Part shown: positions 37,976 to 64,000 of the stretch, in pieces
Numbering within the stretch: position 1 is the stretch's first letter
Layout of the letters: each line of letters begins with the position of its first letter
Source of the DNA: Isoetes taiwanensis
Taxonomy: Eukaryota > Streptophyta > Lycopodiopsida > Isoetales > Isoetaceae
DNA length: 64,000 nucleotides
Reading direction: 5' to 3'
NCBI GenBank assembly: GCA_021234155.1
Contig: JAJEKV010000002.1
Span: 22,099,726-22,163,725, forward strand
The notes under the pieces: generated by a model
Databases searched by the model: none
The model's input: the letters and a program-made list of their open reading frames with translations, nothing else
Told to the model about the DNA's origin: nothing
Program-made: the position numbers and the translations under genes

Positions 37976-40204
37976 TATGCATGCAATAAGAAGTAACATG
38001 CTATTATATTTATAATGCAAAAGGCTAAATATGCTACTCATGCTCAATAGGTAATATGTATCTTATCTATTACACTAGATATGGCAATCTCCCAAGATAC
38101 CAATATGCAACAAGGTGCACAAAAGAATCAAGCAAAGCTCAAACATACTTTAGAGAAGATGCTAGGTCAGAAATATCTAAGATAGACAAAGCTATACAGT
38201 CAGGCCATGCTACAATGATAGAAATTTAAAGCGAGATAAGTACTACATGCATAGAACAGTTCCAGCCAGAATTCAAACATTTTTTTGAGGGCATAGCCAG
38301 ATGCTACTGACAACTCGCATAGGCATCATCATTATAATTTTAGATCCTCTTATCGTTTCTTTATCTGAAAGATTTTTCAAGGTAATATATTTCAAGCCAT
38401 CTCTGATCCAGGATGTCAAGACTCAACCATCATCTTCACTTATCTCAACTCCAGCATAGATATTTAATAATGACATTATGCTCCAATATTTCAGAAGTCT
38501 AGCTCAAACAGATATGCAACCTATGTTGCTCTTGCAACATCACCATGTGAGACCCAACGATCCAAGCAAGCTCGATCATGACATGCCATGACATCAGCTT
38601 CAAACAACATTGTCCGAAAAACATTTGTCTCTAGTGTCCTATTCATGCACCAGAGATATAATGCTTGAATTGGGTGAAATGATAGAGTCTTATACTACAA
38701 TCAGCATAACAGGTATTAGAGACAAAGTCTGTTTATACATGATATCATCAAGCAGTAATGCAATTCAAGAACTCGAAGATTCTAAAAGACATAAAAATAA
38801 GGTAGGTTGGTGCCTAATCATGTTAGCATCAAGCAAAAGCCTCCTAAAAAATGAAATGAATAGACCTATGACAAATAAAGAGAGCACTCAAAACCTAAAT
38901 CTGCAATAAACAAGCAAGCGCCATGTCTTGTTGTAAAACTTATATAGTAAATACTATATGTAGATTTAAAATTTGAGACAGGAGCCCAATTTTTATCTTC
39001 AAACATTCAAAATCCTCAACACTTAGAAATGGACGGTATAAGCTCATAGGTTGCTTGTTCTAGACAAGACTTGGTAGATAGATAAACTACAAATTGTAAG
39101 GATATATCCATTACCATATCAAAAACCTAAAGGTAGCACCATTTCTTATTGCTGAAACTTTTGCTGTATACTTTAAAATCCAATGGTGCAATTGTTTGAA
39201 ATTCCTGTCCTTGATTTACTTGCATTTTCGACATGAGAATGGCACAATATTTTAAAGTTTAACCAATGGATTATAAACCATTGAATTGAAACAATAAAGA
39301 CATGAATTGAATTGAAAATGCACAAATACATGCAGGAGTTACTGGTTCGACAAAACCAGAGCTTCAGGCTGCTGAGCTCCGGTGAAACCGCTGCATGTAG
39401 AAAGCCTCTACGGACCATTTGTATAGAAATCTGTGACTGTTAGGCTAGTTCAAAAAATAAAGAACCGTTTTAGAATGACCGTGCAAAAAATTCCTCCTAA
39501 AGTAATCAAGATCTGTTTCAAGAATAAAAATGCCAAAAGTTCGTCATAAAGCACGACTATGGCCCTGCAACTGATCTACTGGCAGGGGAGTTGAACTCCG
39601 ACGAAACCAAACCAGTATCAACAAACACAAAACATTGAAGCATCTAATTTTTCTAGTTTGAAACTGCCAAAACCTACAAAGAACAAATTCCCTCCCATCG
39701 CTCCTCTTCTACAAGTTCGCTGCCATTGCCCCTCTTGAACAAAACCCTCTCCAGCCATGAAATCCATGTTGCCGCCATCGCTCTTCAAGAAAATTAGGTT
39801 CGGCCGAAAAAGGAAGCCCACGTGACACGCATGGATACTCTAAAAATAAACCTTTGAAACTACACCAAACAAAGCCCAGAATCTTAAAAAGCCTCGCCAA
39901 CCTTCTAAAAAAAGCGTGCAAAGTGTATAGTGGGAAACTTATGGTGTGGGAGCGAAGAAGACTAAAGTTAATCATAAGCCCACTATTTGGGTTTATTTAT
40001 TTCTTAACTTGAATGTTGGGCATGGATTCAGACTCGTTTTCAGTAGCATCTCAACAGTCATCAAATTCTCTTTGGTTCACTCCTTGGACGTTGGCCAAGA
40101 CTTAAGAAACTAGCGTTCCATATTACAGGAGACCATTTGGAATAGCCATTTGGAAAAGACGGTGCCCTGGTATTCAAAAATGTTTCCCCTACTCCAGATC
40201 GGAT
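37976..40204. other. Intergenic, no supported gene
   Basis: AT-rich. Short open frames at 38610-38909 and 39618-39975 lack recognisable motifs. Confidence 0.4.
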
Positions 40205-42706: not shown

Positions 42707-43602
42707 GCCCTAAACATCATTACAGTTTCAATACCAGATGAATGTAAATACTTACTAAATGCCTTACCAGTCCTTGGAAGGGATCAACAGAAGGTTTTCT
42801 GCCTTTGTACATTGTTCTTTTGAGGGTGAAACATGAAACCAAACACCTAACTTAGCACATGCTGTGTGGTTGCTGATCAACAAGTAGCCAGTCCAAGGAT
42901 TGATGAATGAAACAGTTGCAACTCCGTTTAAGAAATAACACGAATATGCCAAAATTCTGTAGTAAAAGTAAAAATTTAACCAAGTAACTCAATGCTTCAA
43001 TCAAAGCAACGAAAATGATGAAAACAACAACTGTTTAGATTAAGTTATTGCATGCATAGAAGATGGATCCAAAACTTCTGGTGTATATCGGACTATTTTA
43101 GGGATTATTCTAGTAAAATTCCATTCAAAATCAAAAGTGTGGCATGTAAAATATTGGAGTGGGACCGGAATTGCAGTTTGAAGCAGGAAATGGAATGCAA
43201 CGTGGGTTCAATTGTTGCTTCTTGTGACGTTAAAAATACTGTTCTATTGTATTAATTGATGCTGCTACTCTCCATGTCAAGGAAGACATTCTTTTTAGAG
43301 GCCATCTATATTGAACGTAGAAGCTCGTCACAATGCAATGTGTATGGAACTTCAAATTGTCGCCAAATTTTTGGGTCATGAATGGCTCGTAAGCTTTATG
43401 TCGCATTTCAATGAACTGGAAGCTTCTTAGAACGCTGTAAGATCATTGTTGTTGGGCAGTTTGTCTTTTTACCTGCTAGAATAAGTGCTTTGTGTTTATG
43501 GTCATTGTAAAGAACTTGCAAAACAGACTCTTTCTGTTCATGTGTATGCCTGTGTGCCTAGCTCGGCAATTCCCTCAGGGCTATTGATGATCTGAGCCAG
43601 AT
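42707..43602. other. Intergenic between DEG5 and PPR gene
   Basis: DEG5 3' region and the upstream region of the PPR gene. No additional gene is supported. Confidence 0.5.
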
Positions 43603-45414
43603 ATGGCGGGGTATACCACATCGTGGGATTCAGTAACTAGAGACGATGCATACAGACTTTTGCAGGCGTGTGAGAAAAGTAAAGATCTGAAATCTGGAAG
43701 GCAAGTGCAATTACTTATGGCTTATAGTGGATTAAGTATGGTTTCTGTTTTGGGCGACCATCTCATTCGCCTCTTTTCTTCCCACGGAAATTTACTAGAA
43801 GCTAATCAAGCCTTTCAGAACATTGCCGAACCGACTGTACATACATGGGCTGCAATAATTTCTGCAAATAGTAAACTTGGGCAAGGTCAAGCTATGCTTG
43901 AATTGTATCCCACACTACAATCGGGCATTAGAGATGACAGGTACGTTTATATTGCTTTACTTAAAGCATGCGCAATGACAAGATCAATTTCACGTGGAAG
44001 AATAATAGATGATCTGATCAAAATAAATGACCTGTCATTTGATGTTGTTTTAAAGAATACCCTGCTCGACATGTATGCCAAGTCTGGGAGCATCGAGGAG
44101 GCATGCAAAGTCTTCTATGAAATGTCAAGTCGAAATGTGGTCTCTTGGAATGCAATAATTGCAGCTTATGCTCAACACGGAGAAATAATCTTAGCTTTAG
44201 AGTGCTTTGGAAAGATGCAACAGGATGGCATAAAAGCAGATGTTGCATCATGGAGTACAGTAGTAGCAGGTTGCATCCAATGTGACAGAGGAGTTCAAGC
44301 TGTAGATATTTTTACAAGTATGGACCAGGAAGGAGTTATGCCAAACAAGATGACTTTTTCAAGTGCTTTGAAAGCATGTTGTAACATTCAAGCACTCAAC
44401 CATGGCAGGCTTTTCCATGAACAGATCATTGAGAATGAAGTTTATTGTGATAGTGTCTTAGGCAGCAGTTTAATTGATATGTACGCAAAATGTGGAAGCC
44501 TAGTGGAGGCAGATAAGATACTTCACAAAGTTTCAAAACCAAATGTGGAATTGTGGAATTCAATGATTTCAGGATATGCACAGCAGGGTGAATCTCTTCG
44601 GGCTTTAGAGTTGTTTGATAAGATGCAAACATCCGGCATAAGGCCAGATGTGATATCTTGGAATGCACTTATTGCAGGATATATTCAGGAGGGAAAATGT
44701 CTTTTAGCTTTAGACTGTTTTGCAGAAATGCAAGAGAAAGGCATGAAGCCTGATGAAGTGACACTTTCAAGTATGCTGAAGGCATGCTCTGGAAGAGAGG
44801 CTGTTGAACAAGGCAGGTTTTTTCATGAGCATATCATAAATTGTGGACTTGGATTAGATGTTGTTGTGGGGAATACCCTGGTTGATATGTATGTCAAATG
44901 TGGTAGCTTAGAGGAAGCATGTCTAGTTTTCAATCAACTACACCATCAAGATGCCATATCTTGGGGTTCAATGGTAACAGGATTTGCCAAGCAGGGGGAT
45001 AGCTATACAGCTTTAGAGTTATTTGAAAAGATGCAAAGAACAGGGATAAAACCAGATGAGGTTTTGTTTACAAATATTCTTACTGCATGTAGTCGCGGCG
45101 GCTTTTTGGATGAAGGCCGCTGGTATTTCAAATCTATGACAGAGTTCAATGGTATTATACCAACGGTCTCCCATTATGTTTGCATGGTTGATCTTCTAGG
45201 ACGGGTAGGCCACACTCATGAGGCAGAAGACTTGGTCTGTGCCACCACAGCGACGAATGTTGTAGGGTGGATTAGTCTTCTTAATTCTTGCAGGATGCAT
45301 AAAAATCTAAAGGGAGGAAAAGACTGCTTTGATCATAGCATCTCTCTTGGTTTCCAGTCTGCTGCTGGGTATGTGCTCATGTCTAATATCTGTGCAGATA
45401 CTGCAAGTGGGTGA
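43603..45414 (+). CDS. Pentatricopeptide repeat protein, PLS class, single exon
   Basis: An uninterrupted 603-residue frame carries tandem ~31-36 residue PPR motifs from about residue 45 to 560. Examples are NVVSWNAIIAAYAQHGEIIL, PDVISWNALIAGYIQEGKCL and DEVTLSSMLKACSGREAVEQ. The recurrent LIDMYAKCGSLVEA-type S motifs show PLS organisation. The C-terminus begins an E domain (HYVCMVDLLGRVGH, then SLLNSCRMHKNLKGGKD, then GYVLMSNICADTASG) and stops early, without E+ or DYW. Such proteins bind organellar transcripts and often act in C-to-U editing or processing, with a separate deaminase when DYW is missing. The target is unknown. Codons at positions 5 and last of each motif could be used to predict the RNA site. 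Confidence 0.9.
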   Translation: MAGYTTSWDSVTRDDAYRLLQACEKSKDLKSGRQVQLLMAYSGLSMVSVLGDHLIRLFSSHGNLLEANQAFQNIAEPTVHTWAAIISANSKLGQGQAMLELYPTLQSGIRDDRYVYIALLKACAMTRSISRGRIIDDLIKINDLSFDVVLKNTLLDMYAKSGSIEEACKVFYEMSSRNVVSWNAIIAAYAQHGEIILALECFGKMQQDGIKADVASWSTVVAGCIQCDRGVQAVDIFTSMDQEGVMPNKMTFSSALKACCNIQALNHGRLFHEQIIENEVYCDSVLGSSLIDMYAKCGSLVEADKILHKVSKPNVELWNSMISGYAQQGESLRALELFDKMQTSGIRPDVISWNALIAGYIQEGKCLLALDCFAEMQEKGMKPDEVTLSSMLKACSGREAVEQGRFFHEHIINCGLGLDVVVGNTLVDMYVKCGSLEEACLVFNQLHHQDAISWGSMVTGFAKQGDSYTALELFEKMQRTGIKPDEVLFTNILTACSRGGFLDEGRWYFKSMTEFNGIIPTVSHYVCMVDLLGRVGHTHEAEDLVCATTATNVVGWISLLNSCRMHKNLKGGKDCFDHSISLGFQSAAGYVLMSNICADTASG

Positions 45415-47027: not shown

Positions 47028-50000
47028 TCATAAATTTGAAAGAAAAGAATGATGGGAATCTATATCCTTGATAAATCTACCAAGAGTATATGGTTCCATC
47101 TCAAAAATCAAGTGAAATCGCGCAATGTCTACACCATATTTCATCCTGATATGTGCATAAGCAAAACATTCCAGCAAAACATGTTTTTCATCCTCAATAC
47201 TTCCATGTGTGCAGAATGAGCATAACCTGTTTTCCTTCGGTACCCCTGACCATCTGCCCGTTTCTGACCTCAGGTGATGGGAACTCATCCTGTACCTTGC
47301 CACCATATGTTTCAAATATCTCGGTATGTTTGAATTGGATAATCGTGTTCTTTGTAAATAACCATCGATTTATTTCATCCGGATATTCTTTGCATTCTAC
47401 TTCCCTTCATTTGCCATAATCTAGAAAGCGCAAGTTTCACGCACCAAATCCCGCACCCCCTGACTCGAGTCCGGCCAATTTTTCTTACGTTATACCCCAA
47501 CTTCGCCGCCCACTTCATCAAATCTTGCCCCAACCCGATGCCTAGGATTGCTCATAAGCAATTTTTGAAGGTCTATGAGCGGGCTGCAGCTTGACCCTGT
47601 TAGCAAAATTTATGGCTTGACACAGAGCTTCAACTTCCAACGGAAGCATAGCCGCTTCCGCAAGCATAATGGCAAATGGTGTCTGAGATTTCACACCCAA
47701 TTCTTCTACCAGAAACACTTTCAAAACGGACTCAATCCGCTTCCATTGTCTCGCAGATAGGCTAGGTCCCCAAATCGGAGAACCATACAGTACCACTGTT
47801 TGAACAAGAGTCTTGAATAGAGTCTTCCTCAGTGGCCAACTAGACAAATTTGCGCTCCAACATCTATTCATCATAGCGTACAGGGCTTTCTTCCCTCCTG
47901 ATACCCGTTTGTCAACATATATGTTCCATGAATATCTTGCATCAAATTCCAAGCCTAAATATTTATAACTGTTTACATTTTCCAGGGGCTGATCCTTATA
48001 GAAGAAAAAAGAGGGCGGTCCCACGGTCCCAACGACCATCACTTTTGTCTTGGTTAAGTTTCATCGACATTGCCTTCTCACTTTGCAAAATTGCTCTAAA
48101 TGGTGTAACATCTCCCCGAGGCCACATCTAGATGTAGATACCAAAATGACATCATCTCAAGCAGCACAAGAGCATTTGCGGCGGTGTAGACTCCCATATC
48201 CGTACCAAACAAGCATCTCTGCTGCATCCATGTATCCAATTCATCGATATAAATGCCAAAGAGTGTCGGAGACAAAGGACACCCCTGTCTCACGCCTATG
48301 GTGCTGTGAATATCAATGTCTGCATGTTTGGATAATTTGACAACAACTTCTGAATAAAGTTCTGCCACGGCAGCCCTCAAATTTTGAGGGACCCCAATTT
48401 GTTCCATTCTCTTTCCCAAATTCTGCCTTGGCACTGTGTCGAATGCCTTGGAAAAATCTATGAATGCCACGAACAGTGTGTGTCTCGGACGCTTAGCATG
48501 CTCACAGAGAACTCTCAGCACTAACGCATGGTCCAATGTGCAATGGTCTTTCCGGAAACCAGCCTGTACAATACTCCGTTTGTCATTCATCTCAGCCCAA
48601 TGGCTTAATCTTTGTTCTAACAAAGTAGCCATAATCTTAGTGAAAGTATTGCCTATCAAAATCGTCCGATAGTTTGCAATCTGATGAGCATCACCACTCT
48701 TCAGGATCGGATGCACTCTATTTTCTCTCCATTCCCTTGGAAGTCCCTGCATTAAAGACGCATTCAAGAGACGGGTCAGCATGCTGATAGCTCTATATCC
48801 AGACCACTTGAAGAGTTCAACTCCCAAAACCCTCGCATGTCCAAGGCCTTGTCATTTGCCATTTTTGCAAAGTTTAATTTAACATCCGCATATGTGAAAA
48901 GTTCTTCATTAAGCCCGAGCTGCTCCATTGGTTCGTGGTATTTCATATAAGTTCCTAATATATTGACAAGTTGGGCTTGATCTAATTTAGCGGGGGGTTA
49001 CTCTTCGGTTGAAGAATTTTCCAGAATGATTTCGGGCTTTGGTGCAATTTCTGCTGTAACCAGTCTTGCCTTCTATTCATATATGCCCTCTTCTTCCTCT
49101 TCTGAGCAATTCTTTGTACCATTTTGGCTTATGTCTTGTCCCTTTTGGGATTTGTTTTCTAGCCTGCTTGCATTCAGAGTCATACCAGCTATTCCCCCTA
49201 CGCATTGTTGTGGAAGTTTTCCCAAACGTGGCCTTTGCAGCATCCTCAACTATCTGTGAAAAGGCTTCAATATCTGCCTTTAAATAGCCTGACCAATAAA
49301 AGCCATCAAGCAAATCCTCTAAAGTATTTTTATAGATAGAATGCTTTTCATATGCTAACTTTAGCTTTGTTTTCAACGTGTCTTATGCCCCCGTTCTTTT
49401 TGCGGATATAGCATCACATGCGATGTCAAAGAAGAGAGGAGCATGATCGATTCCAAAGTACTTCGCCCCATCGTAAATCCTCGATCAGGTCCGGATTTGT
49501 TTTGCTAAAACAAAATCAATTGCGCTTGCCCCGTTGTGTGTGATGCAGGTGTAACCACCAGAGTGAGGAAACATGTCAATCCCATTCAGTATCTTCAAGT
49601 CACAGGCGGTTCCAAATTCTAAAAACAGTCTGCCCATTGTGTTAGAGTCTTGATTAGCAGACTTCCTGGCATACCTCGTGATCTTCCACTTCCTCTAATG
49701 TGACATTCATTGGTCGCAAGATATGCTAAAGTCCGGTCTGATCCAATCCTCGCATTAAAATCACCAACCACCATTACCTGCGCATGCTCATGAAAAGCCA
49801 CCACTTCTTTGGACAAATCATGAAACGGATTTGTTTTATCGAATTCCCTGCCTTCATACAATTTCATTTGCAAGGGAGCATAATAACATATTGCAATCAT
49901 GAGAGTCTTATTTTTCAAACTGATTTCTATCCAGAGATGTTGATTCCGAATGTGTTTATGTTTCAGCTTTACCAAATGTGATACCTTGTCCTTGACATAA

Positions 50001-50203
50001 ACTGCTATGCCACCATGCCCTCGACCCATTTGTTTTGATTTCTCATTCCAAACATTTCCCACTAATTGGTATCCGAACAACATAGGCAAAGCTCTTGCCT
50101 GATGTTGCCATGTTTCTGTCACGAAAACCATATCCATATCACTCCAAACATCATGAACTGCCTCCATTTTTGCTTGGTTTGCTCCATGTGCATTCCAAGC
50201 CAT
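47028..50203 (-). pseudogene. LINE ORF2: endonuclease-RT-zinc domain, broken
   Basis: The endonuclease frame is 50203-49619: MAWNAHGANQAKMEAVHDVW, VFVTETWQ, GHGGIAVYVKDKV, VMVVGDFNARIG. A frameshift in a T-run near 49625 precedes the continuing EFGTACDLKILNGIDMFPHS and a later IDHAPLFFDI, the endonuclease end. The linker is 49376-49077. The RT frame 48827-48096 has QAGFRKDHCTLDHAL, FIDFSKAFDTVPR and GVRQGCPLSPTLFGIYIDEL. The expected YADD box reads AANA near 48170-48186. The RT tail is 48042-47542 (YKYLGLEFDARYSW, LYGSPIWGPSLSARQW). The zinc domain is 47315-47028 (CSFCTHGSIEDEKHVLLEC). At least four breaks prevent one polypeptide. Confidence 0.88.
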
Positions 50204-50224
50204 GCACCTTAAGGCCCGAAGTTC

Positions 50225-50935
50225 CTATGTCCGCTTCCTGCTGGTAATCACCGCCTTGCCATTCCTGTCAAGATATGCAATTACACCATTTTCCCTTGCC
50301 TCCTTCACCTTGGCCCACTCCTTCTTCTTGATTTCATTCTGAGCTTGCGTTAAATCAGGATCTAACCATAGTTTATGGCCCTTTAGCGCAGCCCTGTTGG
50401 CCATTATCCTGTCCCTATCTTCCACCTTGTCAAATTTGACAAGAATAGGCCGATGGGAGCTTCCTATCTTTCCTAACCTTCTACAGTGCACAAACCCTGG
50501 ATTGTGCAGATGCATAATTTCTTTGAAAAAATGACCAATTACCTCTGTTGTATTCTCATTTTCGGCTTCCTGGAGACCGCTGATTTTCAGATTTTTTGCT
50601 CTAAACTGCTGCTCACTTTGCTCTGCCGAGGTTTTCTCTAGGTTATCCCTAGTTGTGTCTGCCACTACATGCATAAGTTCTTGCTTAATTTCGTCCATAC
50701 GAAATTCTTTATGCCTTCCAATCATGCCGACCAGTTCTTGATTTTGAGCCTTGAGCTCCTGATTTTGCTTGGATAAATCTGTGTTTTGTGTAACCAGGAC
50801 CTGGACGGTTTGCTGTAAGGCATCCATTTGCTGCTTCAACTCTTGTAACAGAGCTATGATTTGCCCGCTGTCACCATCGTATTCGACCAGATCACCCTTG
50901 CCAGGTGATCCGATGCCCTTCTTCTTAGGAGGCAT
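50225..50935 (-). CDS. LINE ORF1 protein, intact frame
   Basis: 236 residues from ATG at 50935. The basic N-terminus (MPPKKKGIGSPGKGDL) is followed by a heptad-rich coiled coil (residues ~25-80: LLQELKQQMDALQQTVQVLV, then NQELKAQNQELVGMI). Next is an RRM-like or L1-ORF1-like region (KNLKISGLQEAENENTTEVI, VHCRRLGKI, RPILVKFDKVEDRDRIMANR). ORF1 proteins trimerise through the coiled coil and bind the element RNA. The frame is undamaged although ORF2 is decayed. The stop is UAG, in the same frame as the endonuclease ATG eight codons downstream. Confidence 0.85.
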   Translation of the reverse strand: MPPKKKGIGSPGKGDLVEYDGDSGQIIALLQELKQQMDALQQTVQVLVTQNTDLSKQNQELKAQNQELVGMIGRHKEFRMDEIKQELMHVVADTTRDNLEKTSAEQSEQQFRAKNLKISGLQEAENENTTEVIGHFFKEIMHLHNPGFVHCRRLGKIGSSHRPILVKFDKVEDRDRIMANRAALKGHKLWLDPDLTQAQNEIKKKEWAKVKEARENGVIAYLDRNGKAVITSRKRT

Positions 50936-50940
50936 ACCCT

Positions 50941-59944: not shown

Positions 59945-62345
59945 TCACAAATTAACACCGAAAATGAATCCATTGTTAAACCATGGCACATTTGTTGATG
60001 GCATTTGATTACGAACAGGTGAACGGAAAGGATTTGCAGTCAATGGATAGCCAATATGCAGTCCAGCTGCCCGAAGAACTTGTTTTGCATTTAAGCAACA
60101 AGGCTCTGCATAATCTGTAAAGAATGCAGGAACTGCTTGTGCTCTTATGATTTCTAATGCACCGACCCATAAGTTATCATTTTCCAATCCTGAATTCATG
60201 GCCACCACCAAATGCGGCAATGGCAAATCATTAACCACCTCTTGATAGAGCCCTTGTACAGAAGTCACTCTTACTCTGCGATTCAGAACAGTCGTTATAC
60301 CTGATAATGAAGGAGGAACTTCTGGACCAACCATCATAATGTGCAAACTACCCAATTCTCCCAAGAGATAAGCAATCTCTGTGAAAGCTGGCATCCAATC
60401 AAGTTCCCCTTCAGGACCTAGATAGTGCACAATCACCTCTCTGTTCTTTGCAAGCAGGTTTTTGGTTGAGATATTCAAGGATGTCATAATGTGATATAAA
60501 GAGAGTGGAAATGAAAGTATAGCAGCCACTGGACTGTCTGGAGGCAGTCCTCTCAAATTATAATATTCTACCCAACTTGACAAAACAACCATGCTCAAAA
60601 CTTCTTCCCCATTAACATAGTCAACAAGAGGGGCATCAAATGGATATTTACCATGTTCCACACCCCATGCTCCTGCAAGGCTACCTCCTTCTGGAGGAGG
60701 TAGCAGACCAAATGGGCATTGTTTAAAGCAACCACAAATTCTCCTCCACATGCCCTTTCCATGGAGTCCCATTGATTCCAGCCATTTACAAGCATGCTCT
60801 ACTAGACAAGGGAAGAGAAAGCCCTTTATTTCAAGTTCTTCTTCCCGTTCCATCATAGCCTTGTAGAGCTCACAGCTTCCCTTGTGAGCCTCCTTCCAGT
60901 GCTTCTTTTGACAATTATGGCTGCAGTATATCACTGCTTTGCATCGGCTACAACGTGGAGCTTTGTCAACTGGAACTTCTGTTTCACATACTACACATTG
61001 CCTTGGACTAGTCCATTGCAGTAAATCTTCCTGAAAATCAAGATGTTCTGCCAGGGTAGGGACTACATTACCAGGCTCTTCATGCTCATGCCGAGGCGGA
61101 TACATAACTTTTACAGCTGTAACTTCCCATTCTCTGGGATCTTCAGCTGGCCATTGAATATCAACAGTATGAGTAAAATCATCAAAACCAACTCCACCAG
61201 GCTTTTGAATCTGCTGCAAAACAGGAAGAACCTGACTTAGAGCCCTAAGACTTGCATATAGCCATCGTAGTTCCTCTATAGTAGGATTGTGAAATGAAGG
61301 AAACCCACTGCCTGCTGGATATACTATGTCTATAACAGGATAAGCATTTTTCTCTGCAACATCAAGTCCCAAAGTTTTAACCATTTTCTTATTTCTTGCT
61401 GAAAGTTCATCTTCTGGGCCAAAAGTAATTCTGAGAAAACCATCTTCTGGAACAGATCTCATGGTTGTCAGTCTCCTGGAGCCATTAATTCTCACTGCAT
61501 CTCCCTGAGACCTAAGAAAATTGAGACCAAGATCTCCCGTTCCTCCACCTCCAACAAACTGGACACATGTGAATGGTTGTCTTGAACTGGACCATTCTGC
61601 ATCCTTGCCTACCTTTATGCCAAGTATATGCTGAGGCTTAAGTTTTTTCCAAGGATTAGACCTGTAGAGGGACGCCAGTGCTCTGAAAACTGCCTTGAGG
61701 AAAGCCGTGCTTAGCCCTTCTATCTTCAAAAGGGAGGAGGTACCACAACCTGGACCTAAGCCTGGTCCAACACCAAACTGCTGTTGAAATTGACCAAACA
61801 ATTCTTTCAAATGGAAGTCCATTCTTCCAAGTACAACAGATTTTCTTCCAACTCTCAAATGTATGCTTGGTTGGAATTTATGGTCACTTATCTCAAGGTA
61901 ACATTGCAATTCCGAACAGATGTCTTTGTCAAAAATCTCAATAAAAGGGTATGTTTTGGAAAGGAACAATGTAACCAATTTTATGAAAGAACTTCAAAGA
62001 TCATGAACCAATCTTCCTAATTTATGATTTATAAAAGACTTCTCTGCCCAGCACTTAAGTGAAAAACAATCAAAACAATGTTACCATGTATTATTCGAAA
62101 CAAGAACGGACCTCTTTACTGCAGGGATAGAAGACAGCCACAGAAGATTTGTTCTCCAAAACGATGGAGCAGTAACCAAGTACACAGATATGCATATCAA
62201 AATGCAGATCCAAAAATGGGGAGGAGAATGAAATGAGCCATACAGACATTTGAATGCCGCTTGTTACGCCGGATCCAGGGCCAGCAATGGCCAGCTGTTG
62301 GACTGGGCAAATCTGCCAAGAATACACTGAGAAGAAGGTTGCCAT
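59945..62345 (-). CDS. MYND zinc-finger protein with MSS51-like C-terminal domain
   Basis: The main exon runs from about 61998 to 59945 (about 680 residues). A MYND finger sits near residues 330-370: CVVC, then CSRCKAVIYCSHNCQKKHW and H-x3-C, with all zinc ligands present. The C-terminal ~270 residues (VIVHYLGPEGELDWMPAFTE, LGELGSLHIMMVGPEVP, PHLVVAMNSGLENDN, PAFFTDYAEPCCLNAKQVLR) resemble the domain that follows the finger in MSS51/ZMYND15-type proteins. No SET domain. The main frame opens without an ATG after an acceptor-like TTTGAAG near 62000. A first exon from ATG 62345 (MATFFSVYSWQICPVQQLAI) is likely, but the junction was not resolved. The molecular role in plants is not known to me. 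Confidence 0.82.
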
Positions 62346-62461
62346 TCCGGGCAGGAAAGGACAGCATGTCCAAATGTTACACAGGTGGAATTTCGTTCAA
62401 TTCACATTCAGTTATCAACAATTAATCGAGTTTAACGATAAGGGTGTTTTTCGTATTTGGT

Positions 62462-62515
62462 AACGTGCCACCAAAAGGTGGTTTCCAGGTGGAAACCACC
62501 GATTGGTGGCACGTT
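62462..62515. repeat. Near-perfect 54-bp palindrome in divergent promoter
   Basis: The left arm AACGTGCCACCAA-AA-GGTGGTTTCCA pairs with the right arm TGGAAACCACC-GA-TTGGTGGCACGTT around a 2-base centre. Only the two AA/GA positions include a mismatch. It lies between the MYND gene (minus) and the recombinase-like gene (plus), each within a few hundred bases. Confidence 0.9.
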
Positions 62516-62957
62516 GCAAAACGTAAGCCATGCGTGCCCTATGATTTCCGGACACGTGGCAAAGTTTTCCACATCAGCATTTATATTTTCGAAGGTTCTT
62601 GAGTTTTCTGAGAAACACAGAGTAGCAGAGCAGCAGAGAGTTTTTTGCGGACGTTCCCGGAGGGCGCTCGTCGGCGCTTCAAGCCGATTGAGGCCGCCGA
62701 GGTCGTATTTGCCTGGATTACATTCTTTTCTTTAGTTTTTTTGGCATTTTTTATGTGCTAATGTCTTTCTTTTGTATTTGTAGGTGAATCTTCGTTTAGA
62801 GCAAGTCGGTGCGGTGTTTTGGCATACTAACCTGTTAAATCTCATTGTTCTCGAAGTTTCTTGTAAGAACTTTGTTGATTTTTTTTTGTTTCTTCAATCT
62901 TTTGTTAATTTCTGTATAATGTAACTAATCTTGGCGATTTTTTGCTTGCAGAGGAGT

Positions 62958-63011
62958 TCTAATCTCGGGTAATCTCGGCTAGTCTCGGTAATCTCGGCTA
63001 ATCTCGGTAAC
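62958..63011. repeat. Short TAATCTCGG tandem repeat
   Basis: About six units of TAATCTCGG/CTAGTCTCGG/TAATCTCGGC in the 5' leader of the downstream gene. Confidence 0.8.
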
Positions 63012-63137
63012 TTGCGGGTTCCAGGCGACTTCTTATACATTTTTGAGGTAATATCCTCTGATTTTTTGTTAAGTGTAATTCTTTCTCATGTTTCTGTACT
63101 CACATTTGTTTTCCTTGTGCTGCATGCAGGTTTCAAG

Positions 63138-64000
63138 ATGTCTATTGTTGCTGAAAGGTTTATTAATGTTCTACTTAGGTTGAGTTTAGTTTCTGGACAT
63201 GCAGTTTCTAACTGCTCTGCTAGTATCAGTCCTTCGTTTACACTCCTAAATGAAGAAGACTGTGAGCTTGTTGGATGCACGGATCCTGCTGCAGTCGAGT
63301 TGATGTTACAAGATCTTGGAAATGAGCCATGGTTTAAGGAGGGGACAGTGTACACTGATGATCTTAAGGCACCAAATGATGAAGAGTTTAAGGAGTTTTT
63401 GAAGCTTGATGAGAAGGCTGTCTCTGAAATCGAAAAGGGGGGCGAAGACAAGTCCAAGAAACTTACCAACTGGGCTAGACGTAAGTTTGATGGATGGAGA
63501 AGGTTTGAGAAACTTGATACAAGTCTTCCACTTGAAGATCTCAACATGCTCGAGTTGAATAAGATGCTTGTTAAATTTCTTTTACAAACTAGAAAGAAAG
63601 ATGGTACTCTATACCCTGCCTCCAGGTAAATTCTTTTATTCTTCATGTTTTGATTTCGTTTATTTCTATTTCTTGATTGTTTCTAATTTATTGTTTTCTG
63701 TTGTAGTCTGCATTGCTTACTGAAGTCAATAGGAAGGATTATCAGGAAAAAGCAAGAAGCAAGAATTAATGCTACTGGAGAAAGGGAGGCAAGATTTAAC
63801 ATTCTGAAAGATGATTTGTTTGGTACTACTAGATTGGCATTTGTTCACATGGCATCAAAAGCTAGAGCTTTAGGTATCGGTGTAAAGAAAAAGAAAGCAC
63901 AGCCAATTTCTTATAGCACAGAGCAGGATTTATTAGCTGATATAGATTATCAGATCACACATCCAAAAGGGATTCTGAAGCGACTGTGCTTTTATTTGGT
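63138..64000 (+). CDS. Crypton-derived/DUF3504 (KIAA1958-type) recombinase-like protein, 5' part
   Basis: Coding exon 1 begins after the acceptor TGCATGCAG with ATG at 63138 and ends at 63625 (CCAG/GTAAAT). Exon 2 starts at 63707 and runs off the window, joining in phase (AG+T). The readable protein has an acidic N-terminal part (LMLQDLGNEPWFKEGTVYTD). Then comes KLTNWARRKFDGWRRF, LNMLELNKMLVKFLLQTRKK, DGTLYPASSLHCLLKSIGRI, and KDDLFGTTRLAFVHMASKAR with GIGVKKKKAQPIS. This series (xxWAxxxFxxW, Lxxx-L-x-F-x-E/T-R-K-x-DG-x-YP, then a short DxxF helix and the linker before the catalytic half) matches the N-terminal core-binding part of Crypton-type tyrosine recombinases as found in KIAA1958, QRICH1 and ZMYM proteins. 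The catalytic R-H-R-Y half would lie beyond 64000. Upstream sequence (62600-63130) looks like an intron-containing 5' leader. Confidence 0.7.

Follow-up and report, generated by a model that had tools for sequence, protein, structure and literature searches.

Inactivated copy of a probable Crypton-type DNA transposon in the genome of the lycophyte Isoetes taiwanensis

The locus and its gene

We analysed a stretch of 64,000 nucleotides of Isoetes taiwanensis (contig JAJEKV010000002.1, positions 22,099,726 to 22,163,725 of the forward strand), hereafter the window, and read the sequence on its right 9 kb further (locus L003, where a position equals the window position minus 62974; positions beyond 64000 are given as window equivalents). 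The right edge of the window falls within a repeated element, in which an open reading frame on the + strand opens with an ATG exactly at 63138 and runs up to a GT donor at 63626. The features are as follows.

62453..65746, + strand: Crypton-type element of 3.29 kb, delimited by likeness to dispersed copies (window part 62453..64000; right end at L003 2772)
62460..62517, no strand: left-terminal palindrome (hairpin) of the element, common to most copies, enlarged or replaced in some
62522..62550, + strand: left arm of an inverted repeat, 29 bp, 69 bp inside the left end
62551..63137, + strand: leader upstream of the start codon, variable between copies
63138..63625, + strand: coding exon 1 of a tyrosine recombinase (YR), from the open reading frame and the copies
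63626..63706, + strand: intron 1, GT-AG, 81 bp, conserved in copies
63707..64290, + strand: coding exon 2 (window part to 64000; the frame runs on beyond 64000 in the genome)
64359-64552, + strand: exon 3, outside the window
64621 (start), + strand: exon 4, outside the window
65718-65746: right arm of the inverted repeat, at the right terminus, outside the window

The first intron reads GTAAATT...GTTGTAG, and its splice sites are kept in most related copies, which bears out the gene with a phase-compatible intron that the preliminary description had placed at 63138. In most of the aligned copies, all three coding introns keep their donor and acceptor sites, and it is on conserved splice sites only that the gene models are drawn. 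A C-terminal extension is encoded in further exons, up to a final stop codon TGA at 65408-65410. The leader carries a CTAATCTCGG repeat at 62959-63010, and introns within it, upstream of 63138, are plausible; the stretch differs among copies.

Directly left of the element lies a host-type gene encoding a MYND finger and an MSS51 C-terminal domain (59945-61993, - strand). Further left, the window contains a pentatricopeptide repeat (PPR) gene without introns (43591-45414, + strand) and a non-LTR retrotransposon remnant with a reverse transcriptase domain (48096-50938, - strand). On the other side, a tRNA-Phe (GAA) is predicted at L003 3105-3179 (window equivalent 66079-66153), 0.33 kb past the right end of the element.

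Ends and copies of the element

When the extended locus was compared by blast with the copies fetched from the genome, the likeness extended from 62445-62453 to about 65746-65749, with unrelated flanks. Separate DNA searches with each end gave about 40 places apiece, most of them ending at the same points. The two arms of the inverted repeat are identical at 24 of 29 positions (score 38, against 24 for the best of 500 shuffles), and the palindrome sits outside the left arm. Either end of the window copy has the heptamer ATAAGGG a few bases beyond it, which is not so in the one other copy readable at both ends. The left flank of the window copy is single-copy in the genome; when an empty site was sought by joining both flanks, no match spanned both. 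Between the ends of the window copy we found the YR gene only, and neither a reverse transcriptase nor any other gene.

A protein search of the same genome returned at least 212 matches (from 132 scored of 2049 candidates), this and the other genome counts given here being lower bounds. About 20 copies, spread over many scaffolds, share 82-99% protein identity, and hundreds of relatives at 45-70% identity are likewise dispersed over scaffolds, which supplies the paralogues whose count the preliminary description had left to be made. Eleven copies have paired ends at a distance of 3.2-3.7 kb and ten at one of 0.37-2.2 kb; the family therefore has internally deleted, non-autonomous derivatives, and the ten deleted copies keep both ends. 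Such dispersed copies with precise ends indicate that the family has been mobile, in the sense of past spread and not of present-day activity. Scans with two short peptide patterns each gave no relatives in IMG/VR contigs or in GTDB genomes.

Two groups of copies show shared structural changes. One and the same insertion, a few hundred bases long and with a GATAA-type repeat, interrupts exon 4 of both L026 (C912, at about 2.44 Mb) and L027 (C930, at about 2.60 Mb). The left flank is common to the two copies as well, so that they seem to stem from a single insertion that was duplicated along with its surroundings. L023 and L024 (C907, at 52.13 and 52.11 Mb) are neighbours with identical deletions in exon 1, the second being truncated, which suggests a local duplication.

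Identity of the recombinase

The intact-frame copies encode one spliced protein with the motifs SRFAIRGAQEL (containing the box I Arg), NKSGR (box II, Lys-x-x-Arg), TGHR, and TAYEKYDRS. In window equivalents, the catalytic residues are the box I Arg at 64017-64019, the box II Lys at 64449-64451 and Arg at 64458-64460, and the Tyr at 64622-64624, nine residues past the His of GHR, where the nucleophile of a tyrosine recombinase is expected. The two coding stretches of the window alone matched no Pfam family at E <= 1. The whole spliced protein matched DUF3504 (E 0.0068) and QRICH1 (E 0.023), in the correct order and both below the curated cut-offs; Pfam scans of its spliced YR part, ahead of the C-terminal exons, gave no GCR1_C or C48 peptidase domain. 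A search of the PDB by sequence gave no relative.

Two other places in the genome, on scaffolds C31 and C606, lie above the DUF3504 cut-off. With its exons joined, the C606 protein scores 35.7 bits against DUF3504 (cut-off 29.7, E 1.1e-8) and 24.9 bits against Phage_integrase (just under the cut-off of 27.1, E 2e-5), and thus scores the former above the general integrase profile. This lineage is related to the window family by tblastn (E 1.5e-8) and by hhalign (184 columns, probability 96.8, E 3.1e-10), with the catalytic positions in register. The match to DUF3504 claimed in the preliminary description thus held in part, the window family falling directly below the cut-off and the C606 lineage above it. 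Because the C606 lineage passes the cut-off and aligns with the window family, and not on account of the weak direct match, we assign the window gene as a predicted tyrosine recombinase of Crypton/DUF3504 type.

The lineage that passes the DUF3504 cut-off is deeply diverged (C606:42450-43200, or L005, and C31:90475-91017, or L004), with K-T-L-R in box II and Y-D-H-S as the Tyr motif; C606 holds a further partial copy at 38716-39217. With the catalytic exon of the window family as query, 150 of 1109 candidates were scored and gave at least 150 matches, the majority of them 48-70% identical. The C606 lineage as query gave at least 187 matches (150 scored of 907 candidates), including unspliced-looking relatives at 30-35% identity with open frames of up to 449 codons. 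Taken together, the two sets of matches show several deep YR lineages in this genome. There is a possible third one (e.g., C908:18087509-18088066 and C1041:12104787-12105326), about 30-35% identical over nearly the whole catalytic domain and unspliced-looking, many of its members having open frames of 300-449 codons.

Cryptons are described with a catalytic R-H-R-Y (PMC3212892). To the right of 64000, where the preliminary description had proposed to look for an Arg...His-x-x-Arg...Tyr set, both Arg, the GHR motif, and the Tyr are found; the box II His is replaced by Lys, so that one of the four positions is substituted, and this in both lineages examined. The pattern NKSGRVSAVTR occurs 20 times in the genome, in several subfamilies with other codons, and its His version zero times. 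Among recognisable copies of the second lineage, N-x-T-L-R...VTR is found about ten times with K; with His it is found once, which does not exceed the control. Type IB topoisomerases have a Lys at a comparable place, and it is therefore plausible, by this analogy, that a recombinase with Lys in box II would be active.

Decay and selection

In the window copy, the reading frame shifts by one base at 64106 and meets a stop codon at 64545-64547, just ahead of the catalytic Tyr; after 64698, 14 bp are deleted. All three lesions are private to it, being absent from the aligned copies that cover these points. Many aligned copies are damaged at other points, and in three the frame stays open past the catalytic Tyr. 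Between intact-frame copies, selection on the protein, a matter left to be tested by the preliminary description, is evident: dN/dS is 0.06 for C1072 against C1039, where 35 differences are synonymous and 9 nonsynonymous (Fisher p 4e-17), and 0.13 for C1031 against C1039 (Fisher p 3e-11). The window copy still gives 0.12-0.22 against its best-preserved relatives, so that its decay looks recent. The protein was under selection while the family spread, which agrees better with selection by way of transposition than with a host function at this locus.

Discussion

We consider it probable that the locus is an inactivated copy of an autonomous Crypton-type DNA transposon in a lycophyte genome. The Crypton-like tyrosine recombinase gene in a land plant, as first described, stands on the sister lineage that exceeds the DUF3504 cut-off and aligns with the window family, and on the WRKY and PPR genes of the host. 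Such an element would move in several steps: 1) the recombinase may bind the inverted repeats near the two ends; 2) it would cut and rejoin the DNA via a covalent phosphotyrosine; 3) the element would be released as a circle and inserted elsewhere without reverse transcription; and 4) the short derivatives would have moved in trans, presumably the only way left to the dead window copy.

A number of features count against the Crypton reading: the direct profile match lies below the cut-off, Lys stands for His, the ends have inverted repeats and a palindrome, and no terminal direct repeat is established. The weak DUF3504 score, the box II Lys in two lineages, the inverted-repeat ends with the left palindrome, and a host group that is not known for Cryptons would favour a separate superfamily of YR DNA transposons with inverted-repeat ends, Crypton-like in their working but not Cryptons by descent. 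We regard this as unlikely, since a sister lineage in the same genome passes the cut-off of DUF3504, a domain derived from animal Crypton YRs, prefers it to the integrase profile, and can be aligned with the window family along the entire catalytic domain.

It had been suggested at first that the gene resembles a host-expressed or domesticated one more than a fresh transposon, with its introns as a sign of this. A domesticated, host-expressed gene of Crypton origin would account for the splicing, the conserved introns, and the purifying selection among copies, but is very improbable here. First, the window copy is broken in three places. Second, it belongs to a multi-copy family with mobile, defined ends and deleted derivatives, and the introns are common to the transposon copies and thus a feature of the family itself. 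Third, the known domesticated DUF3504 genes have lost the catalytic Tyr and the second Arg, both of which the window family keeps. In place of an intact conserved gene without mobile ends, the locus has a damaged copy of a repeated element, and domestication is rejected for it.

It is equally improbable that the recombinase is left over from a YR retrotransposon (DIRS or Ngaro type) or an integrated virus, even though such elements encode tyrosine recombinases too and DIRS occur in green algae: between the constant ends there is no reverse transcriptase or other gene, and thus no reverse transcriptase with RNase H beside the YR as in DIRS and Ngaro; the other near-full-length copies have end-to-end spans (3.2-3.7 kb) similar to that of the window copy; and the limited pattern scan gave no relative in viral contigs. 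Contamination of the plant assembly by foreign DNA is the least probable explanation of all and is rejected for this locus: the culture of the published plants was non-axenic, with contaminants that needed removal (PMC8566536), but the copies lie within scaffolds of 7-53 Mb, and the PPR gene in the window, together with 93 matches to the WRKY domain in the genome, indicates a land-plant host.

That a Crypton in a land plant was unexpected, as the preliminary description had remarked, agrees with the literature. The survey of Kojima and Jurka (2011) reported Cryptons in animals, fungi, and stramenopiles (PMC3212892), a plant paper of 2024 describes them as not identified in plants (PMC11397423), and the word Crypton is absent from a 2022 review of land-plant transposons (PMC9033089). 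We found no literature that joins Cryptons and lycophytes in substance, in a search outside of which lay Repbase and most subscription papers, so that a record may have been missed or may stand in a database alone. If the Crypton-type reading is right, a lycophyte with a large and diverse family, intact frames included, would bring land plants into the range of Cryptons, and the question of whether these are old in eukaryotes or owe their spread to horizontal transfer could be put to a direct test. With the box II Lys, the active site of the recombinase would show natural variation, and the DNA needed by the recombinase at each end would be delimited by the many short derivatives. We propose further, and tentatively, that land plants may host a YR DNA transposon clade of their own, separate from the four Crypton groups recognised in 2011. 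Its marks would be a Lys-x-x-Arg active site, ends with inverted repeats and a palindrome, spliced genes, and an expansion to hundreds of copies in a lycophyte.

Comparison with known systems

Like CryptonA of animals (PMC3212892), the window family is made of DNA transposons with a single DUF3504-type YR gene, no reverse transcriptase, and non-autonomous derivatives. It differs from CryptonA in 1) its host, a land plant; 2) the Lys in place of His in box II; 3) its inverted-repeat and palindromic ends, whereas animal Cryptons are without terminal repeats; and 4) at least three coding introns and a C-terminal extension. Its copies number in the hundreds, whereas most known Crypton hosts, medaka excepted, have few. 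CryptonF and CryptonS, from fungi, oomycetes, and a diatom, are DNA transposons that likewise have a YR and no reverse transcriptase. Short direct repeats at the termini are common to CryptonS and are reported also as a general mark of Cryptons, whereas none is established in the window family. The window protein resembles the domesticated DUF3504 genes (KIAA1958, KCTD1, ZMYM2-4, QRICH1, and WOC) in its weak hits to the DUF3504 and QRICH1 profiles, which follow one another as they do in those genes. The latter are conserved in their hosts and have lost the catalytic Tyr and the second Arg, whereas the window family retains both and the locus itself is a broken transposon copy. We thus file the window family as Crypton-type by its predicted gene content and profile, with an active-site residue, ends, and a host that set it apart from the Cryptons described so far.
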